Shown piece after piece: positions 3,405 through 10,677 of a stretch of 41,116 nt of DNA. The notes beneath the pieces were generated by a model. That model did no database searches, was not told the origin of the DNA, and saw only the letters and a list, made by a program, of their open reading frames with translations. The stretch lies in the NCBI GenBank assembly GCA_027449105.1, contig DAIDMG010000009.1, forward strand, positions 1-41,116. Reading direction: 5' to 3'. This DNA is from Acidiphilium sp. (GTDB lineage: Bacteria > Pseudomonadota > Alphaproteobacteria > Acetobacterales > Acetobacteraceae). How positions within the stretch are numbered: the first letter of the stretch is position 1; each line of letters begins with the position of its first letter. The position numbers were made by a program, and so were the translations under genes.

Positions 3405-3479
3405 GGGCGCGTAGCTCAGCGGGAGAGCACTGCCTTGACATGGCAGGGGTCACAGGTTCAATCCCTGTCGCGCCCACCA
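3405..3479 (+). tRNA. tRNA-Val (anticodon GAC)
   Basis: A full cloverleaf can be drawn. The acceptor arm GGGCGCG pairs with CGCGCCC, the D-arm is GTAGCTCAGCGGGAGAGC, and the anticodon stem CTGCC/GGCAG holds the loop TTGACAT with anticodon GAC. The T-arm carries GGTTCAATCC. Discriminator A is followed by an encoded CCA at 3477-3479. GAC reads the valine codons GUC and GUU. No integrase gene or duplicated 3' end is seen nearby. Confidence 0.96.
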
Positions 3480-4065
3480 CTCAACCCCGGCTTTGGCCTG
3501 ACCTCAATAAATGAGCAATCGCATGGCCATCTGAGGGAACGGCACTTCCGTCAATTCGCATTGGTGGCGCGTCGTCTTATCGAAGGGCAAAAAAACGGTC
3601 GCCTTGGTCTCACTGATCTACTTCAGGCGGTTTCGTGTACCCGGCGATGGTGGGGAGTGATTTTGGCGCAGCGCCCCGCTACCGCCACATCTGAAAAAGA
3701 CCGGGTTGACGCAGAAAAACCAATTCGCAGAATCGTTTGGCTTGGGGTACGCACCATGCGCGATGCCATGATGGTTTGTACGCGTACGGGCCAAAACGCA
3801 TGTGCGGTTCGACGCTTTTTCTTAGGGTGAAGCTGATGCTGGCGAGGTGTCCGGATTAAAGGTGACGACGTGGAAGCTCCACCGCCTATGCAGCGCGATA
3901 GGGCCAGACGAGATGGGAGGATTGTGGCGCCATGTACACGTCAGGCGTTCGCCGCTGAACGTCAATGCGTCGTCCGCGGCGATTCTCAAACGCTTCGGTT
4001 TGCACGAACGCTGGCAACAGTGTTGTTTAGGTTTTGAAACAGGATTTGGTCCAGGAGGCATTCGA
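3480..4065. other. Gene-poor stretch with a possible coding remnant on the minus strand
   Basis: No intact gene is recognised between the tRNA and the end of the AhpD-like gene. On the minus strand a frame from about 4065 down to a stop near 3822 reads protein-like sequence, including DALTFSGERLTCTWRH and WSFHVVTFNPDTS. It has no start of its own and simply continues antisense through the AhpD-like gene. It could be the 3' remnant of a decayed mobile-element gene; I cannot name the family. Confidence 0.35.
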
Positions 4066-4413
4066 TCAGTTTTTGCTGCTGGTCTGGTCGAAGGCTTCCA
4101 GCGCTTCAGCAGCGTACATTGCCGATGGCCCAGCGCCCATGTAGACCGCCATGCCAAGAGTTTCGGCGATCTCGGCACGAGTGGCACCAGCACGGGCGGC
4201 GTCGCGAGCGTGATAGGCGATGCACGGTGTACAGCGAGTGGCAACTGCTATTGCGAGAGCGATCAGTTCTTTGGTTTTGTAGTCTAGGGCAGTGCCGCCG
4301 TGGGCAGCTTTAGCGATACCGCTAAAGGCTTTCATAACGTCGGGTGCCGCTTCCCGCATGTCCCGGACGCCCTTATCCATCGCGTCAATAAGCGTTATCC
4401 AATTTTCAATCAT
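4066..4413 (-). CDS. AhpD-like / carboxymuconolactone decarboxylase family protein
   Basis: The 115-residue all-helical protein carries the family redox motif: a Glu in KTKELIALAIAV followed by RCTPCIAYH (Cys61, Cys64, His68). Members with this CxxC-H motif include thiol peroxidase partners of the AhpD type and uncharacterised stress proteins, while true decarboxylases usually lack it. A thiol-based peroxidase or disulfide role is therefore the better guess. The start ATG 4413 is preceded by AAGGG at a good distance. It is third in an apparent operon after the cytochrome-porin and the cytochrome c (48-base gap), suggesting protection from peroxide made during electron transfer. That link is inference. 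Confidence 0.85.
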   Translation of the reverse strand: MIENWITLIDAMDKGVRDMREAAPDVMKAFSGIAKAAHGGTALDYKTKELIALAIAVATRCTPCIAYHARDAARAGATRAEIAETLGMAVYMGAGPSAMYAAEALEAFDQTSSKN

Positions 4414-4461
4414 GATAGCTGACCCTTCATTTTGAAGTTGTCGTCCTATCGCAATGTTAAG

Positions 4462-4848
4462 TCATCCTCCTTTTCTTCTCAGGGACGCCAAATATGCAAT
4501 GATATCGGCGCGTTTTATAGCGTTTCTCATCCCCATGAAGGGCATCTTGGTTCCAGGAACGTCCATTTGCGGACTCAAAAGGAACTTCTTAAGGGCTGCA
4601 GAAGTCCAGGTAATATGAGCGGCCTTTAAAGCTGGAGAGAAGGCATAACCTGGTATGTTAGCGGCTTTTTCTCCGTAAACCCTTGAAAGGTTCGGACCAA
4701 TGTCATCCTGACCAGGTACAACACTATGGCAGGCGGAACATTGCGCTGCAAAAATTGCCTTTCCGTCATTAGCATTAGGCGACACGTCCGACGCGCTGGC
4801 CGCGGACATGGTGATTGCTGTGGCAATACAAAGAATTATCGCTTTCAT
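4462..4848 (-). CDS. Soluble class I cytochrome c, periplasmic
   Basis: The protein has 128 residues from ATG 4848. This start is chosen because the signal peptide begins there and GGGA lies just upstream; an in-frame ATG 14 codons earlier would spoil the signal peptide. The hydrophobic leader ends at about ASA-S (residue 20). Haem attaches through QCSACH (Cys37, Cys40, His41), and the axial methionine is probably Met102 in GTKMPFMG. The size and the KMPF context match mitochondrial-type cytochrome c/c2 monohaem carriers. It lies 42 bases after the beta-barrel cytochrome gene on the same strand, so it is a natural periplasmic acceptor or donor for it. That partnership is inferred from position. 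Confidence 0.92.
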   Translation of the reverse strand: MKAIILCIATAITMSAASASDVSPNANDGKAIFAAQCSACHSVVPGQDDIGPNLSRVYGEKAANIPGYAFSPALKAAHITWTSAALKKFLLSPQMDVPGTKMPFMGMRNAIKRADIIAYLASLRRKGG

Positions 4849-4890
4849 CTCCAATTCCCTTTTTCGCACGTGGAATAACGAAGATTCCAT

Positions 4891-6276
4891 CTAAAACGCC
4901 ACCCAGATTCCAGCGAACAGCGTGTCATTGGCCCCAGCGCTACGACCGAAGCCGTCGTAATTGTGGGCCAATCCATTGAACGTGGGATAAAACGTGTCGA
5001 CCACAAATAACTTGGCGTTCAACCATGGCAGCCACTTGGGCCCGCCATTATTGAAGGGGTAGTAGTCAAGTTCTGTTGACCAGCTATTCGTGTCTGGTTT
5101 GCCGTTTGCGCTGCCACCAATTGGGGATGCTGCATACAGCAGCGGATCAGCGTTGCCGTAAACTGTACGAAAAGACTCGATAATACCGTATTTTTGAAAC
5201 AGGAGTTCAGATACAGTCACCGTTAGTAGGTCTAGTGTATCGGAAGGATTCGCGGTAATCCCGAGCGGATAGCTTGCCCTCCAATCCTGGGATTCGTGAA
5301 CGAAATTTGCTTGGATCGAAAGTGCCTGCTTCGCTGTGATGTACTGGAATTGTGAGTCTGCGGCGACGTCGAGGATTCGATCCGTGGGTCCGTTAAGCAT
5401 GCCCGATGGGTAGGGGCGGTCAAATAATGCGTATGATCCGACCTCGAACGAGTTGTTTACCCAAGTGTGCTGGAATGCAAGCCTCACATATGGAATCACT
5501 CCGTCAACGCGGGGCGCTGGCCCAGCTCCGAGTGCGTAGCTGAGGTGGTTAGGAAGTGACTTGTAAAGGTCGGCTTCGGTGTAAAGCATATCGGCTGGCG
5601 TGATGTTCAAGGCGCCGTACGCACCGAGGCCGTAGACTTCGCCGCCTAAGGCATCGATCTGATCATCAGCGATGGGTCCGGGTGCCACATTTGAGTGGAT
5701 ATACGGGAAGCCCCAAGAAGGTACTGTGTTCCATAGATCCGTTATCGTCGGGGCATTGTTGAACGTAAGGCCAAAAAACAACGGTTTCCCGAACAGCGTA
5801 GCGGGGCGGGCAAGCCGGATATCCGCACCATCCCAGTGAACACTCTTTGATACTCCGGAATACGTTCCCTGGATGAATGCGCCCAGCCCAAGTTGTGTAT
5901 CAAGAGCACCGCCATAGAATACGCTGGTTTGCTGCGGCACCACAACGTCGTTGGATTTGAAGCCAGGATGTAGTCCTCCCGGTATTTTGTCGTGCAGCTG
6001 GGTAAAACCTATTTGAGAAGCGACGGCAAAGTTTTTCCATGTCGGAAAAGTTCCGCCGGCAATATATCCCTCAAGTTTGAACTCACGGCCGTACGGAGTG
6101 AGCTGAGGAAAACCAATATGGCACGCTGAACAGGGTTCTCCAGTTTGGGCCGCGAAGGCTGGGATGGCATGCGCTACGTCGGGGGAACCAATCAGAACAA
6201 GAGAGCTTAAAGCAGCAAGCAGGACACCAGTACTTGCGGCTGTTGGTCCGGTTGCACGGAAGCGATAAGGCGCCAT
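4891..6276 (-). CDS. Outer-membrane cytochrome-porin fusion, Cyc2-like
   Basis: The 461-residue protein begins at ATG 6276, chosen over an in-frame upstream start because a signal peptide (cleavage near DVAHA-IPAF, residue 37) and a GAGG ribosome binding site match it. A single haem motif EPCSACH (Cys49, Cys52, His53) comes right after the signal peptide, followed by FPQLTPYGREFKLEGY. The remaining ~400 residues are rich in alternating aromatic/polar strands and end in GIWVAF, with a terminal Phe as in outer-membrane barrels. One haem plugged into a barrel is the architecture of Cyc2 iron oxidases, but related porin-cytochromes of unknown substrate share it. It heads an operon with cytochrome c and an AhpD-like protein behind a perfect FNR-type box. 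Confidence 0.8.
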   Translation of the reverse strand: MAPYRFRATGPTAASTGVLLAALSSLVLIGSPDVAHAIPAFAAQTGEPCSACHIGFPQLTPYGREFKLEGYIAGGTFPTWKNFAVASQIGFTQLHDKIPGGLHPGFKSNDVVVPQQTSVFYGGALDTQLGLGAFIQGTYSGVSKSVHWDGADIRLARPATLFGKPLFFGLTFNNAPTITDLWNTVPSWGFPYIHSNVAPGPIADDQIDALGGEVYGLGAYGALNITPADMLYTEADLYKSLPNHLSYALGAGPAPRVDGVIPYVRLAFQHTWVNNSFEVGSYALFDRPYPSGMLNGPTDRILDVAADSQFQYITAKQALSIQANFVHESQDWRASYPLGITANPSDTLDLLTVTVSELLFQKYGIIESFRTVYGNADPLLYAASPIGGSANGKPDTNSWSTELDYYPFNNGGPKWLPWLNAKLFVVDTFYPTFNGLAHNYDGFGRSAGANDTLFAGIWVAF

Positions 6277-6323
6277 GGCACACACCTCAGTGATGAGACG
6301 ATAATATATTGCATAACGTACGC

Positions 6324-6329
6324 AGTATA
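6324..6329 (-). promoter_or_regulatory. -10 element of the cytochrome-porin operon
   Basis: Read on the minus strand this is TATACT, a near-consensus -10 hexamer. It lies 20 bases downstream of the FNR-type palindrome. This puts transcription start near 6317 and the palindrome centre near -40, the activating position of Crp/Fnr proteins. The leader before the ATG at 6276 would be about 40 bases. Confidence 0.6.
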
Positions 6330-6349
6330 CTACCGGCGGCGTCGTGCCG

Positions 6350-6363
6350 TTGATATAGATCAA
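6350..6363 (-). promoter_or_regulatory. FNR/FixK-type operator, perfect palindrome
   Basis: The minus strand reads TTGAT-CTAT-ATCAA, an exact match to the FNR/FixK/Dnr consensus TTGAT-N4-ATCAA. It is 74 bases upstream of the cytochrome-porin start and correctly spaced from TATACT. A regulator with the matching recognition residues is encoded at 9946-10677. Confidence 0.8.
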
Positions 6364-6638
6364 GCTCGTCAGAGGATCACGGAAATGTGAGTTTTGGTGC
6401 CGGTTCAGGTCGGCCACCGTTCAGTATCGCGATGACAGGAGACGATCCGAATAGCCAGGACGTTGGGCACTGCGTTTCGGAAGGCGGAGAACTCTATTGG
6501 GAATCGAGGCGGATTTATGCGGAAGCGATCATTGCGCCGAGCGGAGGGAAAGCGATATTGGTGCACCCTGTTTGATAACCTAACGCGGCTGTACTCCATG
6601 ATAAATTGCAGGATGTTGGAGGGCGTTATCCGGAGTAA

Positions 6639-9845: not shown

Positions 9846-9859
9846 TTGATTTTAATCAA
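9846..9859 (+). promoter_or_regulatory. FNR/FixK-type operator before the Crp/Fnr regulator gene
   Basis: The sequence TTGAT-TTTA-ATCAA is a perfect FNR-type palindrome. A possible -10, CATTAT at 9885-9890, would place its centre near -44. It lies between the end of the phosphotransacetylase gene and the TTG start of the regulator at 9946, so autoregulation is likely. Confidence 0.8.
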
Positions 9860-9945: not shown

Positions 9946-10677
9946 TTGGGGCCGGCAATCTACGCAATCCCGCTTTGCGGCGGAACGACGGCGCCCCGGC
10001 AGCTTCTGTCCTTTGAGGAACGCCGAAAATTATCGCATATTGCTTTGATTCGCCGCTTTGAGGCGGGGGCGTTCTTATTCCGGGAAACGGAGCAGGCAAC
10101 GGAAATCTTCAATATCGTGGCCGGTGTGGTGAAGACAACAACCACTCTTGCTGATGGGCGCCAAAGTACTGTCGCTTTCTTTTTCAATCACGATCTACTT
10201 GGTATGTTTGAGGCGGGCTATTATAGCCAAACCGCCGAAGCATTGACATCAGTGACCACCTACAGTTTTCCCATTGATTCGTTGGTGCCACTTCTACGAA
10301 AAGACCCCGATCTGCAATTTCATTTTTTTTCAAAAGTTTTGGATGAATTGCGAGTTGCCCAGCGACAGGCACTGGTGCTTGGCCGATTTGGCGCTGCCCA
10401 AAGAATTGCATTATTTCTTGATTTGCTTGATCGTCACCCGGAAATGCACCGGAGCGGTGGCCCGAGCATATCGATCCCGATGGACCGCTCAGACATCGCT
10501 GACTACGTCGGGCTCACCGTTGAAAGTGTCAGCCGTACACTTCAGCGATTACATCGCGCGGGTATCATTTATCTTGACGGACGACATGCATTTGAAATTC
10601 GCGATCGCGTTGCTCTTGATCGCCTGATTGGTGGTACGGTTGCCGCTGACGATCAGACGCTGTTTCCCGCTTTGTAG
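9946..10677 (+). CDS. Crp/Fnr-family transcriptional regulator, FixK/Dnr-like
   Basis: The 243-residue protein starts at TTG 9946, which has GGAG nine bases ahead; no ATG or GTG fits. An N-terminal cyclic-nucleotide-binding-like beta-roll (about residues 20-125) is followed by the dimer helix and a Crp-type HTH (about 150-225). The recognition helix LTVESVSRTLQRL has Glu193, Ser196 and Arg197. This is the E-xx-SR set by which FNR reads TTGAT, matching the boxes at 6350 and 9846. Only one cysteine (residue 11) is present, so it cannot hold the FNR iron-sulfur cluster. Its signal must come from elsewhere, as for FixK, or from another ligand, as for haem-binding Dnr. Confidence 0.9.
   Translation: MGPAIYAIPLCGGTTAPRQLLSFEERRKLSHIALIRRFEAGAFLFRETEQATEIFNIVAGVVKTTTTLADGRQSTVAFFFNHDLLGMFEAGYYSQTAEALTSVTTYSFPIDSLVPLLRKDPDLQFHFFSKVLDELRVAQRQALVLGRFGAAQRIALFLDLLDRHPEMHRSGGPSISIPMDRSDIADYVGLTVESVSRTLQRLHRAGIIYLDGRHAFEIRDRVALDRLIGGTVAADDQTLFPAL

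Follow-up and report, generated by a model that had tools for sequence, protein, structure and literature searches.

The question raised by this locus is in which direction, and under what conditions, a Cyc2-like cytochrome-porin of an Acidiphilium would carry electrons across the outer membrane. The window, meaning the whole stretch of 41,116 nucleotides that was analysed (contig C9, positions 1-41116), comes from a source genome of 2.77 Mb that is 88% complete. Three genes lie on its minus strand, separated by 42 and 48 bases as the first-pass annotation had stated. They code for a Cyc2-like outer-membrane cytochrome-porin (6276-4891), a periplasmic monohaem cytochrome c of 128 aa with one CXXCH (4848-4462) and an AhpD/CMD-family protein of 115 aa with the motif CTPCIAYH (4413-4066). 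A terminator scan of positions 3700-6500 found no minus-strand terminator between the three genes and only a single site, on the plus strand at 4007-4024, although the results of the terminator and sigma-70 scans were no better than chance.

Homologues of the barrel protein were found in 59 of the 200 genomes sampled from the family and in all thirteen Acidiphilium genomes, its own included, which argues that the barrel gene is more than a chance ORF. The nearest relative of the locus is L053, a MAG, with 98% identity, and the nearest species-named relatives in the tree of barrel relatives are A. iwatense and A. rubrum, so that the genome counts as Acidiphilium-like. From a set of 80 relatives' loci, four (L075, L076, L084 and L129) were left out as no frame in them fitted the motif rule, leaving 76. 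Fifteen of the loci (L053-L067) form the Acidiphilium/Acidocella clade, referred to below as the clade. Two cut or broken loci (L002 and L014) were left out of the family sample. The family, genus and relatives sets share species, so the counts of upstream boxes given below overlap.

The barrel protein is 461 aa in length, against a length of at least 365 aa required of Cyc2, and carries AIPAFAAQTGEPCSACH after a hydrophobic leader and GIWVAF at its C-terminal end. Judged by eye, the leader has a basic start, a hydrophobic run and AHA before IPAF, and the structural model places a helix (residues 16-29) there. The single haem motif, CSACH, occupies residues 49-53 near the N terminus, and the PXL found four residues after the CXXCH is kept (CSACHIGFPQL). 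An AlphaFold2 model built from a 77-row alignment (A2) has a mean pLDDT of 87.7 and a pTM of 0.84; its 16 strands span residues 83-460, and the haem site precedes strand 1. The single-haem beta-barrel protein proposed in the first-pass annotation is thus upheld by the one CXXCH behind the leader, the terminal Phe and a predicted fold in which all 16 strands are present. Foldseek matched the model to porins including OprP and OprO, and VIA-align gave Z scores of about 22 for OmpC, OmpF and OprB and about 21 for OprO and OprP; OprP and OprO were likewise reported for Cyc2 by Keffer et al. (PMC8406198). No Pfam or NCBIfam model matched the barrel protein at E up to 1, and a PDB sequence search with it returned no credible relative.

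Cyc2 has been defined by a signal peptide, one CXXCH, the motif AXPXFAR[QK][TY] upstream of it, PXL downstream and a 16-strand barrel (PMC8406198). The barrel protein departs from the signature at one residue, reading AIPAFAAQT with Ala in place of Arg. This position is Ala in fourteen of the fifteen clade loci and Gly in the remaining one (L067), while Arg occupies it in 55 of the 77 alignment rows. Because the signature Arg is missing and the tree in PMC8406198 excluded sequences without the upstream motif, we file the protein as a Cyc2-like cytochrome-porin that is a variant of Cyc2. The likeness to the Cyc2 architecture seen earlier in this alphaproteobacterium stands. With the Cyc2 family of Mariprofundus PV-1, At. 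ferrooxidans (Cyc2) and Leptospirillum (Cyt572) described in PMC8406198 it has in common the leader, CXXCH, PXL, 16-strand barrel and length, and it differs from them in the Ala at the signature position and in a low-oxygen box upstream of its gene. MtrCAB, MtoAB and PioAB also carry electrons through an outer-membrane barrel but have 26 strands and a decahaem partner (PMC8406198). The sole decahaem model searched, TIGR03507 (decahem_SO1788), matched none of the thirteen Acidiphilium genomes.

The product of the second gene matches Pfam Cytochrom_C (37.2 bits, cut-off 21.3). Its nearest model is c-550/CycA, where it scores 80.4 bits against a cut-off of 240, so that it is related to this family and not assigned to it. 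The pairing of the barrel with a soluble periplasmic monohaem cytochrome c finds support among the relatives, where a simple adjacency rule places a small c-type cytochrome beside the cyc2-like gene in 44 of 76 loci (37 downstream, 7 upstream). Within the clade such adjacency occurs at nine of fifteen loci, and the Acidocella-clade loci L064-L066 have no cytochrome at that place.

The gene combination had been called unusual, but the cyc2 and cytochrome c pair is already published for the Acetobacteraceae, where a mono- or dihaem cytochrome c gene often adjoins cyc2 and where the Acidocella homologues were counted as Cyc2 (PMC10715153). These Cyc2/Cyc1 pairs share the arrangement described here; Fe(II) oxidation is favoured for them, and FNR/FixK control is not mentioned in the passages of PMC10715153 that concern them. 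The Cyc2B/Cyc1B pair of At. ferrooxidans (Norris 2018, as cited) also has cyc2 beside a cytochrome c gene, and its Cyc2B was tied to anaerobic Fe(III) reduction. A similarity network in PMC10654088 links At. ferrooxidans Cyc2 to Acidiphilium. Neither the barrel protein nor the cyc2/cytochrome c pair is new in kind.

The third gene product is a match to Pfam CMD (81.2 bits, cut-off 23) and to the NCBIfam ahpD_dom model TIGR00778 (59.4 bits, cut-off 27.8), and shares with the AhpD/CMD family the CMD domain and the CXXC and His. What sets it apart is its place beside cyc2, which was found in only three of the thirteen Acidiphilium genomes (G000, G595 and G597), although twelve of them contain an orthologue (59-100%). 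The cytochrome and AhpD genes of G597 are separated by a DDE_3 transposase ORF. Among the 76 relatives' loci, a strong AhpD match beside cyc2 was found in L053 only, and a distant match near cyc2 in L057 is on the opposite strand. The AhpD-like gene is therefore a downstream neighbour at this locus and not a conserved member of the module, as had been supposed, and AhpD as a functional partner is ruled out as a general statement.

A perfect FNR/FixK palindrome, TTGATATAGATCAA (TTGAT-N4-ATCAA), lies on the minus strand at 6350-6363, 73 bases before the ATG of the barrel gene. Two perfect boxes occur in the window compared with 0.07 expected from shuffles, and no further box with one mismatch was found there (1.57 expected). 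A -10-like hexamer, TATACT, is located 20 bases after the box (6324-6329, minus strand), and L053 has TATAAT at this position. The best -10 score after 31 boxes has a mean of 3.52 compared with 3.08 (sd 0.13) in shuffles, a value reached in 1 of 500, and within the clade most members match only three of the six positions.

TTGA-N6-TCAA was found upstream of the cyc2-like gene in 29 of 76 relatives (30 when a slightly longer upstream stretch was taken) and in fourteen of the fifteen clade loci. Nine control motifs (spacings N4, N5, N7 and N8, swapped and reversed half-sites, CRP and two other palindromes) were each present upstream in 0-2 of the 76 and in none of the fifteen. The background in the rest of the relatives' loci is 17 boxes in 694,925 bases, or 0.009 per 366. 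In the genus, the box precedes twelve of fourteen full-length copies with readable upstream sequence and is lacking at the other two; left out of these fourteen were one cut copy (L147), the truncated copies L157/L035 (box present) and the broken copies L156/L158 (no box). At least one full-length copy has the box in eleven of the twelve genus genomes with readable upstream sequence, the exception being G153, where it occurs only before a truncated second copy. In the family sample the box is found upstream in 14 of 29. At least twelve changes are required on the tree of relatives, which indicates that the box was gained or lost many times. The box is present in 17 of 22 relatives without the signature Arg compared with 9 of 55 with it; a link between Arg loss and the box was set aside, as the tree gives only two independent pairs and the association is confounded by descent.

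No FNR/FixK control of cyc2 was reported in the literature searched, which includes few subscription journals and does not prove absence. In the passages of cyc2 and iron papers where FNR is mentioned, it refers to ferredoxin-NADP oxidoreductase, E. coli ccm genes or a reference. The putative FNR/FixK box upstream of the cyc2-like gene is thus an element that we did not find in print.

The source genome contains 27 TTGA-N6-TCAA sites compared with none for the backward control. Twenty-four sites outside the window were examined (one on contig C41 was left out), eleven of them between ORFs and thirteen inside an ORF. Nine proteins behind box sites were scanned against models and two of them scored over cut-off, namely a [NiFe]-hydrogenase small subunit (546.6 bits) and a BCAM0308 match. 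The name of the latter model begins with lxa, which we take to stand for low-oxygen activated. The seven under cut-off include a UbiT-like protein just short of it (46.1 bits, cut-off 46.9), whose gene is followed by ubiU with an 81% match to plasmid UbiU, a five-Cys FnrL-like regulator and a paralogue of c-550. The others are a lactate-permease-like protein, HtpX, a Pal-like lipoprotein and a weak CspE match, whose genes are not especially low-oxygen genes.

About 580 bases upstream of a torC-like/torA-like pair lies a box with letters identical to those of the cyc2 box. Fe(III) is ruled out as the sole anaerobic acceptor by the presence in the genome of a TorA-type S/N-oxide reductase, which passes the bisC_fam cut-off with 1049.9 bits. 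Near the cyc2-like gene the window also holds hemN (395.7 bits, over cut-off) and ackA, and the gammaproteobacterial loci L083 and L091 have hemN-like and FNR-type genes near theirs. Because the box stands before ubiT, the [NiFe] hydrogenase and the fnrL-like gene as well as before the cyc2-like gene, the cyc2-like/cytochrome c module probably belongs to a low-oxygen regulon.

A candidate regulator is encoded in the window itself, at 9946-10677 on the plus strand. This member of the Crp/FNR superfamily has FixK as its closest model, below cut-off (119.5 bits, cut-off 300), and contains one Cys and the helix VESVSR. The second perfect FNR/FixK box (9846-9859, no strand assigned) lies upstream of its gene. 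The FnrL-like gene (contig C16, L142) codes for a protein with five Cys that scores 167 bits, also under a cut-off of 300. Both regulators have an E..SR helix, as in FNR.

Copies of the module are also carried by plasmids. In pACMV3 of A. multivorum and pACRY03 of A. cryptum, a cyc2 relative and a cytochrome gene stand beside ubiT, ubiU and ubiV (all over cut-off where pACMV3 was scanned; by annotation in pACRY03), and pACMV3 has nrdD and nrdG some 4 kb from its cyc2 relative. The reading frame of the pACRY03 copy is open over 455 codons and includes a leader and CXXCH, and that of the pACMV3 copy is broken up into two ORFs. No box was found before either cyc2 copy in the 396 bases searched, and the DNA just upstream of both adjoins a transposase gene. 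The ubiT beside these copies carries a box of its own.

The gene content, the barrel fold of the model, the conserved box and the low-oxygen company of that box form the observed basis for a tentative proposal, to which we give slightly less than an even chance, that the Cyc2-like monohaem cytochrome-porin and the soluble periplasmic cytochrome c make up a two-protein unit spanning the outer membrane, induced at low oxygen and exporting electrons to Fe(III). At low oxygen, an FNR- or FixK-type activator would bind the box at 6350-6363 and turn the operon on. The periplasmic cytochrome c would then pass electrons to the haem, which may sit where the barrel opens to the periplasm. Fe(III) from outside would take them up at the haem, allowing the cell to dispose of electrons. 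The supply of electrons in the source genome would probably do without a bc1 complex. Its Rieske protein has no usual [2Fe-2S] motif by eye and no Pfam match, which makes the route from quinol to cytochrome c through bc1 doubtful. The electron entry from Fe(II) that had been proposed earlier is possibly to be reversed.

Export is favoured because the module appears to lie in a low-oxygen regulon and because members of Acidiphilium are known to reduce Fe(III). The c-550-type cytochromes c have potentials well below that of the Fe(III)/Fe(II) couple, a further point for export. This couple lies at about +770 mV at pH 2 (PMC8406198). Also in favour, A. acidophilum, a species given as unable to oxidise Fe(II), reduced Fe(III) effectively only at lowered oxygen (PMC8790237), and Cyc2 levels in At. 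ferrooxidans are raised when the cells grow anaerobically on Fe(III) (PMC7735108). Photoferrotrophy was rejected for the source genome, which has no Photo_RC match although this absence is weak at 88% completeness; such a match is present in eight of the thirteen Acidiphilium genomes.

Several observations argue against export. Classic FNR tolerates less oxygen than 20-40% saturation. This range, at which alone A. acidophilum reduced Fe(III) effectively (PMC8790237), exceeds that tolerance, and A. acidophilum and strain SJH reduced no iron without any oxygen. In the same source iron reduction by SJH seemed constitutive, and that by A. cryptum JF-5 took place regardless of oxygen. The doubtful bc1 route, with a Rieske protein that seems damaged, counts against export as well. 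The box is missing before two full-length copies in the genus and before both copies on Acidiphilium plasmids, and another cytochrome, ApcA, has been named as ferric-reducing in Acidiphilium (PMC7677001).

FNR-type control would fit microaerobic Fe(II) oxidation too, which also weighs against export. Many iron oxidisers are microaerophiles, and the low-oxygen box is compatible with such a life. In the scheme proposed in PMC10715153, electrons from Fe(II) would reach a terminal oxidase by way of the Cyc2-like protein and cytochrome c, and so avoid a bc1 complex that does not function. The likeness to proven Fe(II) oxidases favours this low-oxygen Fe(II) oxidase, as does the Rieske protein without cluster motifs, since PMC10715153 argues in this direction from such damage. 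The rusticyanin-like protein of the source genome is a further point for it and one against export, but only two of the thirteen genus genomes have its gene, which lies near metal-resistance genes, and all thirteen have cyc2; a rusticyanin search over 398 genomes gave 52 matches, none over cut-off. Given that PMC8790237 does not count A. acidophilum among the Fe(II) oxidisers and that the box ties the cyc2-like gene to ubiT and other low-oxygen genes, we consider Fe(II) oxidation rather unlikely.

A reversible unit whose direction is set by the outside redox state, as suggested for Acidithiobacillus Cyc2, appears improbable to us. Anaerobic growth on Fe(III) does raise the products of the Rus operon and Cyc2B/Cyc1B in the Fe(II)-oxidising At. 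ferrooxidans (PMC7735108), but no report of Acidiphilium growth on Fe(II) was found in the literature searched. Least probable, with only a slim chance, is that the protein has no role with iron and serves as a cytochrome-porin for another acceptor or donor or as a redox-gated channel. Keffer et al. warn that function is unproven across much of the Cyc2 family (PMC8406198), and the signature Arg is missing in the clade. Against this, the haem site, the PXL motif and the barrel are all kept, as is the cytochrome partner in most of the clade, which consists largely of acidophile genera.

Taken further, the reading of electron export to Fe(III) would make the Acidiphilium/Acidocella branch a dedicated outer-membrane ferric reductase derived from the Cyc2 fold, having lost the Arg near the haem site and come under FNR/FixK control. 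In acidophilic heterotrophs it would serve as the terminal reductase for Fe(III), regulated by oxygen and with a bc1-free electron supply. We regard this extension as possible, if doubtful as a whole. If it were true, the replacement of upstream boxes by IS elements, as on the A. cryptum plasmid, could explain the strains that reduce iron indifferently to oxygen.

According to PMC8790237, the oxygen-dependent reduction of ferric iron by Acidiphilium was reported in 2002, and the exact mechanisms of Fe(III) reduction in extreme acidophiles are little known. The module offers a concrete outer-membrane candidate for this oxygen-regulated reduction, present in all thirteen genus genomes searched, and its putative switch predicts when the cytochrome-porin would be made. 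The case also cautions against taking a Cyc2-like gene automatically as a marker of Fe(II) oxidation.

Plasmid-borne cyc2-like genes, with adjoining transposase genes, were found on pACMV3 of A. multivorum (L047) and pACRY03 of A. cryptum (L048). The FNR/FixK-type box (TTGAT-N4-ATCAA) was not found with either gene. On pACRY03 the gene forms an open frame, and on pACMV3 it is split. The island around both includes ubiTUV, joined on pACMV3 by nrdDG. A plasmid recorded under Acidithiobacillus ferrooxidans YQ-N3 (CP084173.1, L049) matches the pACRY03 stretch of Acidiphilium gene for gene; transfer may have taken place, or the culture may have been mixed.

A second cyc2-like copy (72-75 %) occurs in the window's own genome (G000:C10:1-720, L002), where the contig end cuts through the gene, and in genome G595 (C82; L154, L199), where the box is present. 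No neighbouring cytochrome c was seen with this copy in either genome. The cytochrome c of the window has a paralogue at G000:C63:107-607 (L188) that carries an FNR box of its own in front, with no barrel gene in the 1.8 kb of sequence covered. Four loci of the Acidiphilium/Acidocella clade (L061, L064, L065 and L066) retain the box and lack an adjacent cytochrome c by the simple neighbour rule. Among gammaproteobacterial loci, hemN-like sequence lies near the cyc2-like genes in L083, L091 and L122, as fragments only in the last, and an FNR-type regulator is also close by in L083 and L091.

Within the window, a DDE_3 transposase fragment (940-1488; 85.8 bits) lies upstream of the tRNA-Val at 3405. 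Elsewhere in the genome, a rusticyanin-like blue copper protein was found at G000:C41:8260-8976 (L139) with 104.5 bits, below the cut-off of 146.7; heavy-metal P-type ATPase and metal-sensitive repressor genes are located a few kb off. Only two of the thirteen Acidiphilium genomes, G000 and G595, contain this protein.

Finally, a Rieske-like protein adjoins a cytochrome b on G000:C197 (L202:1401-1931); its sequence shows no recognisable [2Fe-2S] motifs, and a Pfam search gave no match. This is in line with the 'deranged bc1' already published for Acetobacteraceae (PMC10715153).
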